Positions 19,648 through 28,668 of a stretch of 64,000 nt of DNA are shown here, in pieces (the first letter of the stretch is position 1; each line of letters begins with the position of its first letter). The stretch spans positions 124,001 to 188,000 of the forward strand of contig JAFRNW010000018.1 in assembly GCA_017429985.1 (NCBI GenBank), written 5' to 3'. Source of the stretch: Clostridia bacterium (GTDB taxonomy: Bacteria > Bacillota > Clostridia > Christensenellales > CAG-138). The notes beneath the pieces are model-generated. The model did not search any database. It worked only from the letters and a program-made list of their open reading frames with translations, and was not told the DNA's origin. The translations under genes were made by a program, and so were the position numbers.

Positions 19648-20931
19648 TTACCCCGCGATTTCCGCTTCTTCCATGATCCCCGCTTCTTCCATCATCTCCG
19701 GTTCAGCCTGCCATGCGTCCCCCGCAGGCTCCCCGTCCGGGGATTCCGCCGCGTATCCCGGATCCGCAGCCTTCATGCCGGTATGGATCCCGTCGCTCGG
19801 ATACGCGATCCGGTCCGACGCACCCAGTCCCGCCGTGACTTCATAGGTGTCCGTGTCTTCATCATAGTTTCCGACGGATACGCGCCTCTTCTCGATTCTG
19901 TCGTTGCTGTCGGCGGCATACACATAGAATGCCCCGTTGTCCTCCACGAAATAGGAGGAGAGCAGCCGGATCCCCGACCCGATGCTTCCGGAACCGAACT
20001 CAATGTACAGGTGCTGCCCCATCATTAGGTCTTCCGTACTGTCCAGAGAAACATAGAAAGCGTATTTGCTGGTGTTTTCCCCCGCGCTGTCGGAATAGTA
20101 TCCTTCTCTCTCGACGGGCTGCTCCGTATTCACCTTGACGATCGATCCGGACCAGGTCTTGTTCTCGTCCACCCTGGAGCGGAGCGTCATGGGCGTACCA
20201 ACCGACAGCTGATAGGCGCCCTGCTCAGAGATCGTTCCCTTTACCCAGAAATCGGCGTTGGAGACGATCACCATGTAGGCGTCCTCGTTATTCGAGGGCA
20301 TCATTTCGCCCGTGTTATCCGAGGAAGGCGGATTGATGGACCGCACGGTGCCGGAAGAGGTCGCCCGCACGATATTGTCATCGATAATCGCCTTGGCTTC
20401 ATCCAGCGCCTTCTTCTTTTCCTTTGCGTCATACTCGGCTTTCATGACGTTCAGTCTCGCCGTCTGCAGCTGGACGTTCAGTTCCGCCTTTGCAGACGCT
20501 CTGGCTTTTCTCAGTTGCTTCTCAAGGCTTCTGATCTCGTCGTTATAGCTGGTGATATTGTTCAGCAGCGTTTCGTAATCGATGAGCAGCTGCTGGGACG
20601 TCATCTGCAGTTTGTCGATATCATAGGAAAACAGAGGCGTTCCCTCCACCACGTCGTCTCCGACTTCAACGAAACACTGATCGACGGTCCTGTCTTCCTC
20701 CAGACGGATCTTCACCTTGTTCTTGGCTTCCACGATACCGGAGTACCGGTCGCTGAGCACGACGCCGCCGTTTCCCTCGATGATTTCCGCCACGGTCTGA
20801 ACGTAAGCGTAATCATCCGTTCCGGACCCGTTCAGCAGGTAATATGCGCCGATCCCGGCGCCGATCAGCACCAGTGCAATCAGCACGATCGCGCCGGGCT
20901 TCAGCTTCCTTTTTTTCTTCTGTGTTTCCAA
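19648..20931 (-). CDS. Membrane-fusion (HlyD/YknX-like) protein 1
   Basis: The start is TTG 20931 with GGAG nine bases upstream. The 427-residue protein has an N-terminal membrane anchor (GAIVLIALVLIGAGIGAYYL), a lipoyl half near VEVGDDVVEGTPLFSYD, a coiled-coil hairpin (about residues 115-180, rich in Lys/Ala/Glu), the other lipoyl half with SSGTVRSINPP, then beta-barrel and membrane-proximal domains. The C-terminus is acidic and Met-rich (EPEMMEEAGIMEEAEIAG), which is unusual. It sits just upstream of the ATPase and probably works with the same exporter as the second fusion protein. Confidence 0.87.
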   Translation of the reverse strand: METQKKKRKLKPGAIVLIALVLIGAGIGAYYLLNGSGTDDYAYVQTVAEIIEGNGGVVLSDRYSGIVEAKNKVKIRLEEDRTVDQCFVEVGDDVVEGTPLFSYDIDKLQMTSQQLLIDYETLLNNITSYNDEIRSLEKQLRKARASAKAELNVQLQTARLNVMKAEYDAKEKKKALDEAKAIIDDNIVRATSSGTVRSINPPSSDNTGEMMPSNNEDAYMVIVSNADFWVKGTISEQGAYQLSVGTPMTLRSRVDENKTWSGSIVKVNTEQPVEREGYYSDSAGENTSKYAFYVSLDSTEDLMMGQHLYIEFGSGSIGSGIRLLSSYFVEDNGAFYVYAADSNDRIEKRRVSVGNYDEDTDTYEVTAGLGASDRIAYPSDGIHTGMKAADPGYAAESPDGEPAGDAWQAEPEMMEEAGIMEEAEIAG

Positions 20932-20978: not shown

Positions 20979-22595
20979 TCAGTCGTCCCGTATGCCGAAC
21001 AGCCCCTTGAAGAAATCCTCGAACCGGGAGAACACTTCCCTTGCGGTCGCCCCGGGTTCCGCCGGGGTCTCCGGCGCGTCCGTTTCCTCCGGCCCGGAGG
21101 GTTCTTCTTCAGAAAGCGGCTGAACCTTCGGCACGTAAATGCTGTCCGTCGTATACAGGAATTTCACGGACCCCGACTCCACGGGGCCGGAAGAATAGGC
21201 GGTATATGCCTCTCCGAGGTCCAGGATCGCGTCTTTGCGGTCCACCGTCACGGACAGCCCGTCCGTCTGTTTATCCAGTTCCTGCAGGCCGTCGTTGTAA
21301 AACTCCCGCAGTCCCTTATAAAGAGATCTTGCTCCGTTTTTCAGTTTTCCGGCGCTGGACGTAAGTGCGGAGGCCCCCTTGTGAAGAGTCTCAACGCCCT
21401 TCGCCAGTTTCGAGGTTCCGCTCTTCAGATCATCCAGATCGACGGACGGGATCTCTTTCAGGATCCCTTCCGCCGTTTTGGCGTTCCTGAGCGCGTCCCC
21501 GAGTTCGGAGAGCGCCCCGGAGATCTCCGCCAGAACCTCGGGATCCAGGCTGCTCTGGATTTTCCCGAGCGCGGAGGAAATGTCGTCCGCCGCGTCCCCC
21601 GCGGCATCCTCCGCAGCGGATACGGCTCTGTTCAGTCCGCTCATGTCCATCGACGAAACGGCATCCCGCAGGGAATCCGTCCCGTTTTCGAGATCCTCGA
21701 TCCCGTCCGTGAAGTCGTCCATGCCTTCCGCGTATTTCTGCAGTCCGCGGTACAGCGCTTTCGCCCCGTCCGTCAGATCCGCCCCCGCATCGTTCAGGTC
21801 GTCCACGCCGGAGACGAAGTCCTCCAGGTCGTTCATGCTGCCGAGGTCGTCCGCGTTCAGCAGGCCGGTCGCCACCACCGCCGTAACGGACTCCATGGAA
21901 AATGATTTCGTGTCGGCCTCAACGGTAAAGCTTTCGGAAAGGGAATCCTTCGCGTCGGTATCCAGGCTCTTCGCCAGTCCCGGGAACGTGGTCCCGATCA
22001 CCGTGGCCGCCCCGGCGTCCGTCATGAGTTTCGCGTTCTTCACGGTAACGTTTTTGAAGGAATCGCCCATCTCCATCATGGTGATCACAGTCAGGGGCGT
22101 ATAGAGCTCGACCTGTTCCCCCTTCACCGTGACCGTATTCTTCAGATTGTTTGAATACCGAACCGTGATAAGGACATGACCCGACTTCCCCGCGATCTCC
22201 TCCGGGGACATTTCGGTACCGTCAAGCGCATAGGTTACGGACATGGTAACGGGAAGCTGTGCGGGGTCTGCGGTTCCCTGATAGCTGACGTCTTCCCCGT
22301 CCGCGGCAAACTTCCATCCCGATTCCGTTTTCACGGGCGTTTTGTTCTGCGTGAGGCACTTGACGTCCGTCAGCGTGCTGGCGTCCTCTATCGTCTCCCG
22401 GCCGTCCGGGTTGACCATGTATACGCTGGACAGTACCTCGCGGGGGTTTCCGGAAGCGTCCGCCGTGACGTAGACCGTCTCGGTCCGCTCAACAGCAACA
22501 CTGTCCGCACTCTCCGCGGCCGTCATACGGAACGGAGAGAGCAGCAGTGCGGCTGCCATCGTCAGGCATACAATTGTTCCGGCAGCGCGTTTCAT
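20979..22595 (-). CDS. Secreted helical-repeat protein of the exporter block (YhgE/Pip-like spacer)
   Basis: The chosen start is ATG 22595, overlapping the stop of a 27-codon ORF by ATGA. The 538-residue protein has a signal peptide (AAGTIVCLTMAAALLLSPFR), a beta-rich domain (about residues 25-230) and a long helical region with spaced Gly and Leu (LTDGAKALYRGLQKYAEGMD; TDGIEDLENGTDSLRDAV). This is like the spacer repeats of YhgE/Pip and MmpL-linked proteins. The tail is Pro/Glu-rich. No membrane segments besides the signal are seen. It probably sits outside the membrane next to the FtsX-type permease; the function is unknown. Confidence 0.75.
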   Translation of the reverse strand: MKRAAGTIVCLTMAAALLLSPFRMTAAESADSVAVERTETVYVTADASGNPREVLSSVYMVNPDGRETIEDASTLTDVKCLTQNKTPVKTESGWKFAADGEDVSYQGTADPAQLPVTMSVTYALDGTEMSPEEIAGKSGHVLITVRYSNNLKNTVTVKGEQVELYTPLTVITMMEMGDSFKNVTVKNAKLMTDAGAATVIGTTFPGLAKSLDTDAKDSLSESFTVEADTKSFSMESVTAVVATGLLNADDLGSMNDLEDFVSGVDDLNDAGADLTDGAKALYRGLQKYAEGMDDFTDGIEDLENGTDSLRDAVSSMDMSGLNRAVSAAEDAAGDAADDISSALGKIQSSLDPEVLAEISGALSELGDALRNAKTAEGILKEIPSVDLDDLKSGTSKLAKGVETLHKGASALTSSAGKLKNGARSLYKGLREFYNDGLQELDKQTDGLSVTVDRKDAILDLGEAYTAYSSGPVESGSVKFLYTTDSIYVPKVQPLSEEEPSGPEETDAPETPAEPGATAREVFSRFEDFFKGLFGIRDD

Positions 22596-22675
22596 CTGAA
22601 GAGATAGACAGCGAATGTGGAAATCAGAAACAACGCAGCGAAAATAATGCAAAGAATTCTGACTGTTTTTTTCAT
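22592..22675 (-). CDS. 27-residue membrane micro-protein
   Basis: ATG 22675 follows GGAAAGGAA at good spacing and encodes MKKTVRILCIIFAALFLIST plus FAVYLFR. This is a basic N-terminus with one hydrophobic helix and no cleavage motif. Its TGA overlaps the ATG of the helical-repeat gene in the ATGA arrangement, and that gene has no other clear ribosome site. It could be a small exporter subunit or a leader that couples translation. It is too short for routine gene callers. Confidence 0.55.
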   Translation of the reverse strand: MKKTVRILCIIFAALFLISTFAVYLFR

Positions 22676-22765
22676 TTCATTTCCTTTCCGTCCGGTCCGG
22701 ATACCGGTAAAAAACTTTTGTTCAATTTTTAATTATATCATGCCAAGATGCCGTTTCACAAATCC

Positions 22766-25303
22766 CTACTCGGCGCTCTTCAGCGATTCGACCATGTTGA
22801 TCCTCCGCACCTTTCTGCGCATGAACAGATTGACGATCATGGCAAAGGCCAGGGAAAGCACGGCGGAATACACATAGCTTGTGGGATCCGCCTTCCGGAT
22901 AAACATGACCATGTCCACTTCGACCGTGGTCACGACAAACCTGTGGAGGTATTTCCCGAATACCAGGCCCAGCACGGTGCCGATCGCGGCAAGCGCGTTG
23001 TTCTCCCGGAACACGTAATCGTACATCTCCTTATCCGTGAATCCGAGGACTTTCAGGGTCGCAAGCTCCCTCCTCCGCTCCGTGATGTTGATGTTCGTCA
23101 GATTCAGCATCACGACGAAGGAAAGCGCGGCAGCGGCGGCGATCAGGATCCCCACGACGTAGTTCAGAACGCTCAGGGCGTCATAGATGTCCTGATGGAT
23201 CCCCGAGAGGAACGTCGACAGATAGACTCTGCTGTCTGCGAGGAAGCGGGTGTTCCATTCGTTCTCGATCGCTTTCCTTGCGGACGGGTCGGCCTCCCTG
23301 TACCCTGAAACGTTCGCGTACACGCAGTTGAACTGCGCGTCTTCCCCTGTCAGGCGTTCATAGTATCCGGACGTAAGGTAGATATAGTGATAGACATAAT
23401 TCTCGGCAATTCCCAGAATGTCCGCCTCATAGGTATCGTCGCCCACTTTGAACGACACTTTCCCGCCGGGCGAAAGATTGTGGTTCTCCGCGATCTTTCT
23501 GGTAATAATGGCGCCCCCGTCCCCGAGCGGGATGGGGTTCCCATCGTCATCATTGAAGCAAATCAGCCTGGAAAGAGCCTCCGGGTCGCCTGTCACAAAC
23601 AGATGCAGGTCAGTCGTCATATCGTCCGCGGATCCGCCCGAAACGCTCTTGTCGTAGCAGTACGCGACATTGTACAGCTCGTTTCCGGGATCCAGTTTCG
23701 TGATCAGAGCGTCCATCTCCTCCCTCGGCAGCGCGTCGTACAGATACGCCTCGAAATCAAGAAGCCACAGTCTCTCAAACTGCGCGGGAATCATCCCGAA
23801 GATGGAATCCGACAGGCCGAACCCCGTTACCAGGAGGCCGCAGCTTCCCGCGATGCCGATCACGCACATCCAGAACCGTTTCTTATACAGGAACATGTTC
23901 CGGATCGTGACCTTGGTCGTGAATCCCAGCCTGTTCCAGATGAATCCGACATGCTCCAGCAGAACCCGTTTGCCGGGTTTCGGCGCCTTCGGCCGCATCA
24001 GGGACGCGGGCACTTCATGCAGCGCGGAAAACGTGACGGCCGCGGCGGCGAGCGTAACGCTTCCCACGATCAGCAGGACGGACATCGCGGCCAGATCCGG
24101 CCAGTACTGGACGTGAAAGTCTGGAAGGCGGAACATGATCCCGTAGGAATTGACGATGACGGTCGGGAACAGCCAGAAGCCGATCCTTGCCCCGATCAGG
24201 CTGCCGGTCAGGCTCGCGAGAACGGCGTACATCAGTTCCTGCATGACGATGGATCTCTGGGAATACCCCAGCGCCTTCAGCGTTCCGATCTCGATCCGCT
24301 GATCCTCCACCATCCTCGTCATGGTCGTCAGCGCGACGAGCATGGCAACGAGCAGGAATATCAGGGGAAAGTAGGTGCCGATCGCCTTGATCCGCTCCGT
24401 GTTCTCCGAATAGTCACGGTATCCGGGATTGTCTTCCCGGTCCCGTACATACCAGGTCGCGTCCGTCGTTTTCCCGTACGCCTCGATCCTGTCGCGCACG
24501 GCGTCGACTTTTTCTTTGTATGCGTCGGAAAAGCAGTTCAGCTCTTCCGTTCCGGCGACCCGGATATCCGCCTCGGAATACCGTACCGCGACGAGCGACA
24601 CGAGCGGAAGTTTGGACCCCAGCCTTCCGATTGCGTTGCCTGACACGTACGCAAAACCGTCACTGTCCCCGTTGCCAATCGAACTGTGGCCGCGGCTGAA
24701 CGAGGAAATATACTTAGACGAATCCAGGAACCCGCAGATATACATTTCTTCCTGGACGCCGTTCGCGGAAAGAACGACCTTGCCGCCCCTCTCAAATCCC
24801 GCAACGGTTTTGAGCCTGGTGTCGACGGCGATCTCGTGGTCGTCCTCCGGGAATCTTCCCTCCGTGAGGTCGGGCCTGTTCAGCGTGAATTCCTCCCCGC
24901 TGATGCCGTAATCCGGCTTCACGGACCACCTTGCCGCGTGTTTGTCCTGCTTCGGAAGCGGCATGGAGATCAGATGGATGTTATACGCCGTGACCTCCCC
25001 GTCCGATTCCTCGTGCATCATCACGTCCGAGGAAAGAAGGGGGATCACCGTTTCCACGCCCCTGATGGCCTCCAGCGCGTCCAGATCGTCCTGCGTGATT
25101 CCCGCGGAGGAGACGACAGTTATGTCGGCAAGGTCCGTTTTGTCCAGATACCGGTCCGCCGTGACCTGCATGTCCGGGCTGGAAGCGCGTACCCCGGCAA
25201 AAAACGCCACGCCGATCAATGAAATGAAGAATATGGAAAGAAACCGCGTCATCGTATGCGCGATTTCCCTGAACAGGTTGATCCACAGATACTTCGATCT
25301 CAT
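22766..25303 (-). CDS. Large FtsX-type ABC transporter permease with two FtsX domains
   Basis: The 845-residue protein has an N-terminal helix (RFLSIFFISLIGVAFFAGVR) and a first extracytoplasmic domain (about residues 40-300). It then has an FtsX core of three helices (YFPLIFLLVAMLVALTTMTR and after), a fourth helix that starts a second extracytoplasmic domain (about 480-690), and a second FtsX core ending MRRKVRRINMVESLKSAE. This matches the 8-10-segment permeases of Gram-positive bacteriocin or antimicrobial-peptide exporters. The stop is TAG, showing amber is a normal stop in this genome. It starts 4 bp after its ATPase. Confidence 0.92.
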   Translation of the reverse strand: MRSKYLWINLFREIAHTMTRFLSIFFISLIGVAFFAGVRASSPDMQVTADRYLDKTDLADITVVSSAGITQDDLDALEAIRGVETVIPLLSSDVMMHEESDGEVTAYNIHLISMPLPKQDKHAARWSVKPDYGISGEEFTLNRPDLTEGRFPEDDHEIAVDTRLKTVAGFERGGKVVLSANGVQEEMYICGFLDSSKYISSFSRGHSSIGNGDSDGFAYVSGNAIGRLGSKLPLVSLVAVRYSEADIRVAGTEELNCFSDAYKEKVDAVRDRIEAYGKTTDATWYVRDREDNPGYRDYSENTERIKAIGTYFPLIFLLVAMLVALTTMTRMVEDQRIEIGTLKALGYSQRSIVMQELMYAVLASLTGSLIGARIGFWLFPTVIVNSYGIMFRLPDFHVQYWPDLAAMSVLLIVGSVTLAAAAVTFSALHEVPASLMRPKAPKPGKRVLLEHVGFIWNRLGFTTKVTIRNMFLYKKRFWMCVIGIAGSCGLLVTGFGLSDSIFGMIPAQFERLWLLDFEAYLYDALPREEMDALITKLDPGNELYNVAYCYDKSVSGGSADDMTTDLHLFVTGDPEALSRLICFNDDDGNPIPLGDGGAIITRKIAENHNLSPGGKVSFKVGDDTYEADILGIAENYVYHYIYLTSGYYERLTGEDAQFNCVYANVSGYREADPSARKAIENEWNTRFLADSRVYLSTFLSGIHQDIYDALSVLNYVVGILIAAAAALSFVVMLNLTNINITERRRELATLKVLGFTDKEMYDYVFRENNALAAIGTVLGLVFGKYLHRFVVTTVEVDMVMFIRKADPTSYVYSAVLSLAFAMIVNLFMRRKVRRINMVESLKSAE

Positions 25304-25307
25304 TCGT

Positions 25308-26009
25308 CTACCATTCTATCTTCTCTATCGACACCGGATCCGGATTGAATACGCTGTCCGCGATCCGGCCGTTCTTGATGGTCACGACCCGGTCCGCCAT
25401 GGGTTTCAGCGCGGCGTTGTGCGTAATGATGATGACGGTCATCCCCTGCTTTCTGCAGCAGTCCTGCAGAAGCTTCAGCACCTGCTTGCCGGTCTGATAG
25501 TCCAGCGCGCCGGTCGGCTCGTCGCAGAGCATCAGTTTCGGATTCTTCGCTAATGCGCGGGCGATGGATACGCGCTGCTGTTCGCCGCCGGACAGCTGCG
25601 CGGGGAAATTCCTTTTCCGGTCGGCCAGTCCGACCAGTTCCAGGACCTGGTCCGTATCGTACGGGCTGCTGCAGATCTGCGTCGCAAGCTCCACATTTTC
25701 CCTGGCGGTCAGGTTCTGCACCAGGTTGTAGAACTGGAACACGAAGCCCACCGTTTCGCGCCGGTAAAGCGTCAGCTTCCTCTGGGAGAATTCTTCAATG
25801 TGGACCCCGTCCACAATGATCTCGCCGCTCGTCGCGGTATCCATTCCACCGAGGATATTCAAAAGCGTGGTCTTCCCGGCGCCCGAAGGCCCCACGACCA
25901 CGCACAGTTCCCCTTTTTCAACCGTGAAGTCGACTCCGTCCAAGGCGTTGATCGTGACCTCGCCCATGCGGTACTGTTTCTTTACGTTTCTGATCTCGAT
26001 ATAAGCCAT
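25308..26009 (-). CDS. ABC transporter ATPase partner of the FtsX-type permease
   Basis: The chosen start is ATG 26009 ([13 protein letters not shown]), the family-typical beginning. The 233-residue protein has Walker [11 protein letters not shown]-loop FVFQFYNLV, signature LSGGEQQR, Walker [14 protein letters not shown] and switch ITHNA. It is the same class as LolD/MacB ATPases. It lies 4 bp before the large permease and ends in TAG. It is the first gene of the exporter block; the PrsA-like gene upstream ends with its own terminator. Confidence 0.93.
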
Positions 26010-26153: not shown

Positions 26154-27269
26154 TCATTCCGCGATGCTCTCGTAATTCTCCGGATACCTCTTGACGGAAT
26201 CCTCCTTGAGCCAGCCCTGAATGAGATTGTTGTAGTATTCGGACTCGTGGTTGCTGACCGCCATGGTGTTGAACTCGTCCTTGACATCCTCATAGGCGAT
26301 CGGACCGCTGGGAACGTTGCCCATCCTCTTGATGATGTGGTAGCCATGCTCGGACTGGACGACGGGCGAGACGTCGCCCTCGTTTTCAAGCGCCAGCGCG
26401 GCGTCCAGAAACTCCGTCACGAAATTGGCGCCTTCCCCGACCACATATCCTTCGGGATTGGTGGCCATGCCGGGATCAATGTTGTACTGGCTGAGCAGCG
26501 CCTCGAAATCTTCGCCCGCCCCGATCTGTTCGAGGATCGTATTGGCCGTTTCCTCGTTGTCGACCAGGATCTGGCGGACATAGAAGAATCCCTCCGGCAC
26601 ATAGAGCGGCATGTACGTATAGCCGTAGACATGGTACTGCTCCATCACAAAGTAGTAGGACGGGTTCTCCGTAAGCTCCTGCTTCTGGAGTTCCAGCTCG
26701 TCCTCGTACATTTTTACGAGGTCGTCCTCGGTAAGCGTCGCGTCGGCAAGCAGCTGCTCGCGGTATTTGCTGATGCGGATGGAATCCTCCTGCTCCCGCA
26801 GGAACTCCTTCTTCAGTTTGGAAAGCGACGTTCCGCTCTTGGCAAGCGATTCCGCCATGATCTTCTTGGCATACACTTCCGGATCGGTGGATCCCGCCTG
26901 TTTGGCGTAATCCACAAACTGCTGGATGAATTTATCGTATTCGGCGTCGGCGGCTGTTTTTGCCGTTTCCTTTTCTTCCGCCGTCAGCTGGACGCCGGCC
27001 TTTTCCGCCTGATATCCCTGGACCGCGTTCGAAAGCTGCTGATCCAGAATGAGATCCAGAAACTCCCGTCTGCCTTCCGGTGTCGTTGTATCGAAGCCGT
27101 ATATGGTTGCATACGACTGATTGCTGTCGTAAATATTCTTCAGTTCCGTTACCGTGATGTTCCTGTCGCCGACGGAAGCAGCGATCTTTCCGGAAGCGCA
27201 TCCGGTGGTTGCAAGCGCCATGCATGCCGCAAGCAGTGCGGCAATCATGATTCTGCCAAACCGTTTCAT
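26154..27269 (-). CDS. PrsA-like extracellular peptidyl-prolyl isomerase lipoprotein
   Basis: The start is ATG 27269 behind AAAGG; the longer open frame upstream has no start signal and overlaps the next gene. The signal peptide ends in lipobox TTGC (MKRFGRIMIAALLAACMALA then TTGC). The 371-residue protein has a SurA/PrsA chaperone N-domain (residues 30-220) and a parvulin-type domain: VRQILVDNEETANTILEQIG, EDFEALLSQYNIDPG, EGDVSPVVQSEHGYHIIKRM. It folds secreted proteins outside the membrane. Its position next to an exporter block and a secreted beta-helix protein fits an envelope role. Confidence 0.9.
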   Translation of the reverse strand: MKRFGRIMIAALLAACMALATTGCASGKIAASVGDRNITVTELKNIYDSNQSYATIYGFDTTTPEGRREFLDLILDQQLSNAVQGYQAEKAGVQLTAEEKETAKTAADAEYDKFIQQFVDYAKQAGSTDPEVYAKKIMAESLAKSGTSLSKLKKEFLREQEDSIRISKYREQLLADATLTEDDLVKMYEDELELQKQELTENPSYYFVMEQYHVYGYTYMPLYVPEGFFYVRQILVDNEETANTILEQIGAGEDFEALLSQYNIDPGMATNPEGYVVGEGANFVTEFLDAALALENEGDVSPVVQSEHGYHIIKRMGNVPSGPIAYEDVKDEFNTMAVSNHESEYYNNLIQGWLKEDSVKRYPENYESIAE

Positions 27270-27343: not shown

Positions 27344-28210
27344 TCAAACATCCGGGGACAGGATCCTGAGATAGGCCGCCATGCCACCCGTCTGCCGGTT
27401 GTCCCCCCGGTAGGAGTACAGCCGCGGGTCCTCCACCGTGCAGACCCCCATCAGGGAAATGTGCTTCGGAAGAACGCCCGCTTCCATAAACTGGCTGACC
27501 GCGATCATCCACAGATCCACATACGCCTTTCCGGGACGTTTCCCGGGCATGAGGCAGTCTGTCGCGGGAAACGCGTCCGCGAAGTCCCTCCCCAGCGCCT
27601 CGTCCACTTCAAAGCAGTTCCCGCAGATGGAAGGTCCGACGCCCGCCACGATGTCGGCCGGATCCGATCCGAATTCCTGCAGCATCTTTCTGACGACTTC
27701 CCGCCCAATCCTGTCGAACGCGCCCCGCCATCCCGCGTGGCACAGTCCGATGCTTTTCGTATGCGGGTCCGCGAAATAGAACGCCATGCAGTCGGCGTGT
27801 CCCGTCATAAGGGTCACAGCGGGATCGTTCGTCACGAGTCCGTCGCAGTCGGGAAGCGGAGGAAACGTATATCCTTTTCCCCGGTCGTTGCGGTCCACCC
27901 TGAGAACGGTCGTGCCGTGCACGTAGGCGTCCATGACCATGCTTTCCACCGGAATCCCTTCCGCGTCGCAGAAGATCCGGTAGTTTTCCATGGTGACCGC
28001 CCTCGGTTCCTCTTCTCTGGTGAAACTCAGGTTCAGGGAGGCGAGATGTCCGGTGCTGATTCCGCCCGTACGTGCAGAAAAGCCATGAGCAAGCCATGGC
28101 ATTTCAGAAAAGGCCGGTAATGTAAAGCTCCCTACCCCGCTGTCGTTCTCGTGATACCGGTATCCGCGTCCGACCAGCTTCCAGGAAGAGAGGAAATCCT
28201 CTTTGTTCAT
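27344..28210 (-). CDS. pgeF: YfiH/PgeF-type multicopper-like purine nucleoside phosphorylase
   Basis: The 288-residue protein has the DUF152/YfiH signature: HGFSARTGGIS near the N-terminus, MTGHADCMAFYF, the zinc ligand pair in GLCHAGWRGAFDRI, VGPSICGNCFEVDEAL and MGVCTVEDPRLYSYRGDN. The His-Cys-His zinc site is intact. Family members act as purine nucleoside phosphorylase/adenosine deaminase or as peptidoglycan-editing factor; older databases call them laccases. Its ATG overlaps the NrdR stop by one base. Confidence 0.93.
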   Translation of the reverse strand: MNKEDFLSSWKLVGRGYRYHENDSGVGSFTLPAFSEMPWLAHGFSARTGGISTGHLASLNLSFTREEEPRAVTMENYRIFCDAEGIPVESMVMDAYVHGTTVLRVDRNDRGKGYTFPPLPDCDGLVTNDPAVTLMTGHADCMAFYFADPHTKSIGLCHAGWRGAFDRIGREVVRKMLQEFGSDPADIVAGVGPSICGNCFEVDEALGRDFADAFPATDCLMPGKRPGKAYVDLWMIAVSQFMEAGVLPKHISLMGVCTVEDPRLYSYRGDNRQTGGMAAYLRILSPDV

Positions 28211-28668
28211 CAGTTCTTTTCGTCCAGAAGGCGCTGAAGCTCCGCCATGAAGGTCTGCGTGTCCTTGAATTCACGGTAGACGGACGCGAACCGGACGTAC
28301 GCGACCTCGTCGACCTTCTTCAGGTTGTTCATCACGATCTCGCCGATGCTGGCGGTCGACACTTCGGAAGCGAGCGTGTTGTAAACGTCCCTTGTGATGT
28401 CCTCCACGAGCTTGTCCTGCGTCGCGGCAGAGATGGGGCGCTTTTCGCACGCCTTGCGGATCCCGCTGCGGATCTTCGCGCTGTCGAACGGTTCCCTGCG
28501 CCCGTCGCGCTTGACGACCATGATCGGGATCTCCTCGATCTTCTCATAGGTCGTAAATCTTCTCCCGCATTCCAGGCATTCCCTGCGGCGCCGGATCGCG
28601 CTGTTGTCTTCTGTCGGTCTGCTGTCGATGACCTTGCTGTCGGTACTGCCGCAATATCTGCACTTCAT
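28210..28668 (-). CDS. nrdR: Transcriptional repressor NrdR
   Basis: The 152-residue protein has the zinc ribbon [17 protein letters not shown] with [12 protein letters not shown] (four cysteines) and an ATP-cone ([20 protein letters not shown] onward). Length and motifs are textbook for NrdR, which represses ribonucleotide reductase genes according to dNTP/ATP state. It is co-transcribed with pgeF. No nrd gene is in the window. Confidence 0.97.

Follow-up and report, generated by a model that had tools for sequence, protein, structure and literature searches.

Gene organization of the locus

On the minus strand of the window (the whole 64-kb stretch of DNA that was analyzed), genes follow one another in the order nrdR, yfiH, a PrsA/SurA-like foldase gene, an ABC ATPase gene, an FtsX permease gene, the 27-codon open reading frame (ORF) P0001, P0002 and an HlyD-like adaptor gene (Table 1). 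Beyond this first adaptor gene, the same strand carries a second ATPase gene, another HlyD-like adaptor gene and a MacB-like permease gene.

Table 1. Features of the P0001 locus (positions in the window).
Feature	Positions	Strand	Evidence
nrdR, part of conserved block	28210..28668	-	PF22811 + PF03477
yfiH-like polyphenol oxidase gene, part of conserved block	27344..28210	-	PF02578, E 6.2e-68
PrsA/SurA-like peptidyl-prolyl isomerase foldase gene (P0003)	26154..27269	-	PF00639, E 5.4e-11
ABC ATPase gene	25308..26009	-	PF00005, E 1e-35
FtsX-type ABC permease gene (845 aa)	22766..25303	-	PF02687, E 1.8e-29
Sigma-70-like promoter, TTGTGA-18-TATAAT, with TG ahead of the second hexamer	22732..22761	-	consensus match only, 10/12
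Shine-Dalgarno AAAGGA, 6 nt 5' of the P0001 ATG	22682..22687	-	read from sequence
27-codon mini-protein gene P0001	22592..22675	-	translation; own-genome profile match E 2.2e-9, P0001 left out of profile
ATGA stop/start overlap of P0001 with P0002	22592..22595	-	read from sequence
P0002, 538-aa exported protein (own signal peptide; LxxG heptads) without a Shine-Dalgarno of its own	20979..22595	-	sequence, TIGR03057, model
HlyD-like adaptor gene, downstream of P0002 in the same gene row	19648..20931	-	PF16576, E 8e-8

Translation of the minus-strand ORF P0001 gives MKKTVRILCIIFAALFLISTFAVYLFR (27 aa, followed by a TGA stop codon), a peptide with a basic N-terminus and one hydrophobic stretch (mean Kyte-Doolittle value of 2.68 over 19 residues). 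The ribosome site, basic N-terminus, single hydrophobic helix and ATGA overlap on which the original prediction of a micro-protein was based were all confirmed in the sequence. We scanned both strands of the 64 kb for ATG-initiated ORFs of 20-45 aa with a Shine-Dalgarno match of at least 4 bases and a helix value above 1.6. Four ORFs passed, among which P0001 was the most hydrophobic and the only one to end in an ATGA overlap. Two overlapping promoter-like sites were found 5' of P0001 relative to 0.4 expected (consensus matches only). We found no terminator-like site or RNA element in the gap between the permease gene and P0002, and no Rfam match at E ≤ 1 in positions 22500-22900. As predicted, the ORF is unannotated: P0001 presents no significant match to Pfam, NCBIfam or PHROGs models, and no Pfam match at all at E ≤ 10. 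We consider it very likely that this 27-codon ORF is a real gene.

The product of P0002 was described as a helical protein, and long helices bearing LxxG heptads (TIGR03057) are indeed present, along with a beta domain and a signal helix at the N-terminus. Its structure model is of low confidence (mean pLDDT of 60.8). The sole PDB match at E ≤ 0.001, the delta-COP mu-homology domain (TM of 0.22 relative to the query and 11% identity, using this low-confidence model), was not interpreted as a fold identity. The 20 nt located 5' of the P0002 ATG (TTCGCTGTCTATCTCTTCAG) are devoid of a Shine-Dalgarno motif, in agreement with the claim that this gene lacks its own ribosome site. The missing Shine-Dalgarno motif and the ATGA overlap both suggest that P0002 is translationally coupled to the mini-gene. 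We rejected a frameshift or sequencing error separating the 27 codons from P0002: the fused product would exceed its homologs by about 27 residues and contain a second hydrophobic segment. A longer form of P0002 starting at a TTG codon (position 22652) was likewise rejected, since the alignment with homologs begins only at MKRAAG.

Stand-alone relatives of P0001

We searched for relatives of P0001 in 103 genomes of the window's taxonomic family, among which the window's own genome is the only one of its genus (g1). Using P0001 as the query, we obtained many matches in short open frames. Thirty loci were read: 18 of them are stand-alone ORFs of 28-37 aa and the other 12 correspond to P0001 itself or to longer frames. 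The 18 stand-alone ORFs were aligned without P0001 to build a profile, and the best match of this profile in the window's genome was the P0001 site (E = 2.2e-9; next match, 0.032). Since P0001 served as the query that retrieved the 18 members, this E-value is somewhat flattered, and we used shuffled sequences, selection and gene order as further checks. P0001 scores 35.9 bits against the profile, and none of 5000 shuffled sequences reached this score (maximum of 25.8 bits; only the helix was shuffled and the basic N-terminus was kept).

Matches at E ≤ 1e-5 were found in 53 of the 103 genomes. By hand count, these comprise 44 genomes with stand-alone short ORFs (the window's own genome included), from which the 18 profile rows also come, and nine genomes where the match lies in a longer frame only (G033, G036, G050, G051, G054, G028, G061, G024 and G019). 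The remaining 50 genomes of the family presented no match at this threshold. Strong copies usually occur once per genome. Using a 26-row profile that includes P0001, we then counted matches in 28 of 396 genomes across the order, 20 of which belong to the window's family. The same profile yielded matches in two of 398 genomes sampled across the phylum, one of them the window's own genome; as a control, this amounts to one of the 397 other genomes with a match at E ≤ 1e-5.

P0001 fits the KxxRIxCxxxAxLFxxS core of these proteins, including Arg6 and Ala13, and possesses its own ATG preceded by AAAGGA at 6 nt; its 27 codons are close to the 28-37 of its relatives. From sequence comparison, P0001 most likely represents the local member of a lineage-specific mini-protein family whose other members are 28-37 residues long. 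Single-helix membrane mini-proteins are a known kind of protein, but the pattern of free or fused copies is unusual.

Two further sets of related sequences were observed. Another family of the same order presents stand-alone relatives of 36-40 aa with longer basic N-termini (L179, L181, L183, L185 and L189). In G024 and G019 (L089 and L090), a segment resembling the mini-protein is fused to frames of 322 and 338 residues with a possible lipobox.

Gene order across relatives

Forty wider loci were compared for gene order: 32 with stand-alone members and eight others, namely seven P0002 homologs and the fused frame of G033. Synteny played no part in picking the family members. A PrsA-like foldase gene directly precedes the mini-gene in 17 of the 32 stand-alone loci, 13 of which present the order nrdR-yfiH-prsA, and the mini-gene overlaps prsA by ATGA in 10 of the 17. 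At the remaining stand-alone loci, a hydrolase gene directly follows the mini-gene (8/32) or other neighbors are found (7/32). The window also contains the nrdR-yfiH-prsA block, but its mini-gene does not directly follow prsA: the ATPase and FtsX permease genes lie in between.

P0001 had initially been proposed to be a small partner of an ABC exporter. Gene order weakens this proposal, since none of the 32 stand-alone loci adjoins an FtsX permease gene and seven relatives that share this permease with the window carry the segment as the start of their helical protein, the P0002 homolog. An ABC-specific role for the mini-protein is thus not supported.

The PrsA-like proteins closest to that of the window are found mostly in genus g24, and in G001, which belongs to a different genus. 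In g24, a 29-aa single-helix ORF (MSKGLRIFSL and similar) lies 17-37 nt after prsA at six of six loci (found by position; L220 left out), and these ORFs score only 9.3-15.8 bits on the mini-protein profile. In G001 (L219 and L249), prsA is followed by 350 nt without any mini-ORF and then by an ATPase gene whose product is 81.6% identical to that of the window; the contig ends there. This order, together with the block in the window, suggests that the window retains the block, its mini-gene being separated from prsA by the ABC genes. The mini-gene may be a prsA-linked copy that was pushed downstream or may derive from the segment common to P0002 homologs.

At three loci of genus g23 (L129, L130 and L131), a basic single-helix protein of 68-71 aa (MKRRHYRIHY and similar) is encoded just upstream of the mini-gene. 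It constitutes another candidate for an unannotated small membrane protein.

Homologs of P0002 and the origin of the mini-gene

Homologs of P0002 were detected at E ≤ 0.001 in 17 of the 103 genomes. In seven of them (G050, G051, G054, G030, G029, G036 and G028, the last on a short contig), the FtsX permease gene is directly followed by the P0002 homolog with no small ORF in between, and the homolog begins with a segment resembling the mini-protein (MKKTTRILCLAIAAVFVVS and similar). The likeness to P0001 is weak in G030 (14.6 bits). Another genome, G013, encodes a close homolog of P0002 with a different N-terminus. More distant P0002-like LxxG proteins from other genera (L010-L016) seem, by eye, to follow the ends of MMPL-like permease genes and not FtsX genes.

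The arrangement in the seven relatives raises the possibility of a split: P0002 would once have carried the 27 codons as its N-terminal signal-anchor and, on acquiring a new signal peptide, would have lost them to a separate ORF. The peptide would then either pair with P0002 in trans or be a remnant. Several observations fit this scenario. The N-terminus of P0002 itself does not resemble the segment (10.1 bits on the mini-protein profile vs 35.9 for P0001). The homolog's N-terminus is the best family match of the genome in six of the seven relatives; the seventh, G030, presents nothing better than 0.447, and none of the seven possesses a stand-alone copy at E ≤ 1e-5. An SD-like stretch is also found at that spot in the homologs of G050, G051 and G036; in the window, the Shine-Dalgarno precedes the 27 codons. 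Against the N-terminal segments of P0002 homologs, P0001 does reach 30.4 bits, but it is closer to the stand-alone members (35.9 bits; best ungapped score of 75 vs 60). Moreover, P0002 possesses its own N-terminus at full length and lacks nothing there, and the window harbors the nrdR-yfiH-prsA block, behind which stand-alone members are found in other genomes. We therefore regard the split of an ancestral anchor as rather unlikely, and favor P0001 as a member of the stand-alone family.

Selection on the mini-protein family

We aligned 46 members with assigned start sites (the start of G078 was reset by hand to an inner ATG). SD-like matches (3 bases or more) precede 43 of them, and all 46 share the Arg and the Ala that P0001 carries as Arg6 and Ala13. 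The pooled pN/pS ratio was 0.42 across the 70 of 1035 pairs that were similar enough to compare. Among 14 independent close pairs, pS exceeded pN in 13, and changes at codon positions 1, 2 and 3 numbered 77, 47 and 151, respectively. This pattern, computed for members other than P0001, points to purifying selection on the mini-protein family. The view of P0001 as a credible micro-protein is thereby borne out, as related stand-alone ORFs appear to be under purifying selection across the family.

These results also bear on the scenario in which the ORF only loads ribosomes onto P0002 and the peptide itself has no task. Such a leader would suit a gene that has no Shine-Dalgarno and starts at an ATGA overlap, and a promoter-like site precedes the ORF. 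But selection acts at the level of residues in the other members, and some stand-alone members do not overlap the next gene, which suggests that the family keeps its sequence and not only the act of translation. We consider this scenario improbable.

The last two explanations are the least credible. A chance, untranslated ORF in the gap between the permease gene and P0002 would be compatible with a length of only 27 codons in a genome that is the sole representative of its genus in the comparison, but the family match, the shuffled sequences and the joint presence of the Shine-Dalgarno and ATGA make this very doubtful. The reading of P0001 as the small hydrophobic toxin in a type I toxin-antitoxin system would fit its size and single helix on general grounds, but is equally hard to reconcile with the usual single strong copy per genome, often among housekeeping genes, and with the absence of an Rfam match around the gene.

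Proposed role of P0001

From the computed evidence (the ORF and its signals, the overlap, the family and its selection, and gene order), we infer that P0001 is probably a translated single-pass membrane mini-protein of this family, made together with P0002 and acting as a small envelope partner of the neighboring extracytoplasmic protein. Translation of P0001 would start from its own ribosome site. On reaching the TGA within the ATGA overlap, the ribosome would terminate and then re-initiate at the start of P0002, so that the amounts of the peptide and P0002 would be linked. Short overlaps were found to be needed for coupling in tested gene pairs from two species, where they result in tight coupling (PMC10666635). 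In E. coli, removing the downstream Shine-Dalgarno lowered re-initiation in four of five pairs, and the output of P0002 may therefore be modest (PMC6728339).

The basic N-terminus of P0001 is predicted to lie inside the cell and its short C-terminus outside, based on the positive-inside rule. The helix would stay in the membrane, with P0002 as its partner here and a PrsA-like foldase in other genera. Neighbors differ between genera, which counts against one fixed partner and suggests a general envelope partner rather than an ABC-specific subunit.

A bolder and less probable reading is that the family constitutes an interchangeable membrane module, with one Arg-Ala helix per genome docking onto a shared envelope partner, and that P0001 was split from P0002. 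If so, the helix would be encoded on its own in 44 genomes and, in nine others, at the N-terminus of varied longer, mostly exported proteins, and the ATGA overlap would allow the module of the window to be supplied to P0002 in trans and in matched amount.

What began as a guess on a single 27-codon ORF has become, through our analysis, a family open to annotation and test; the micro-protein prediction is strengthened to a family, and the ABC-partner prediction is not. The family supplies residues to mutate (Arg6 and Ala13) and genomes with free or fused copies to compare, and its genes are repeatedly linked to one for an extracytoplasmic foldase. Automatic annotation likely misses these genes because no model covers them in the versions of Pfam, NCBIfam and PHROGs that we searched.

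Comparison with known small proteins

Several described proteins resemble P0001. Prli42 (NF033880) is a 31-aa stressosome-linked membrane mini-protein of Listeria whose N-terminus binds the stressosome (PMC6614362). It shares with P0001 a length of about 30 residues, a basic cytosolic N-terminus and a single helix. The Prli42 model exceeded its curated cut-off of 27.5 bits in none of the 103 genomes and presented no match at E ≤ 10 in the window's own genome; the stand-alone mini-protein loci among the matches listed were those of G015 (E = 0.38) and G007 (E = 4.2). DUF4044 (PF13253), a model of about 33 residues for short bacterial proteins of unknown function, exceeded its gathering cut-off of 21.8 bits in none of the 103 genomes, and we saw no mini-protein locus among the weak matches listed. 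For LptM (NF047847; curated cut-off of 27.7 bits), the best of six members scanned scored 15.6 bits and P0001 was not among the matches. All three identities were rejected on these scores.

A literature search, largely confined to papers outside subscription, returned no description of this mini-protein family. Conserved and mostly unannotated small ORFs have been catalogued on a large scale, as in the 4,539 small-protein families of the human microbiome and in GMSC, and these collections may include the present family; the main text of the GMSC paper does not mention 'christensenell' (PMC11364881).

In terms of mode of action, the closest models are AcrZ and KdpF, short single helices bound to larger membrane machines (PMC7267776, PMC3618439). 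These belong to other pumps, and the present family is mostly not found beside a transporter. By likeness to AcrZ and KdpF, P0001 may nonetheless act as a partner at the membrane.
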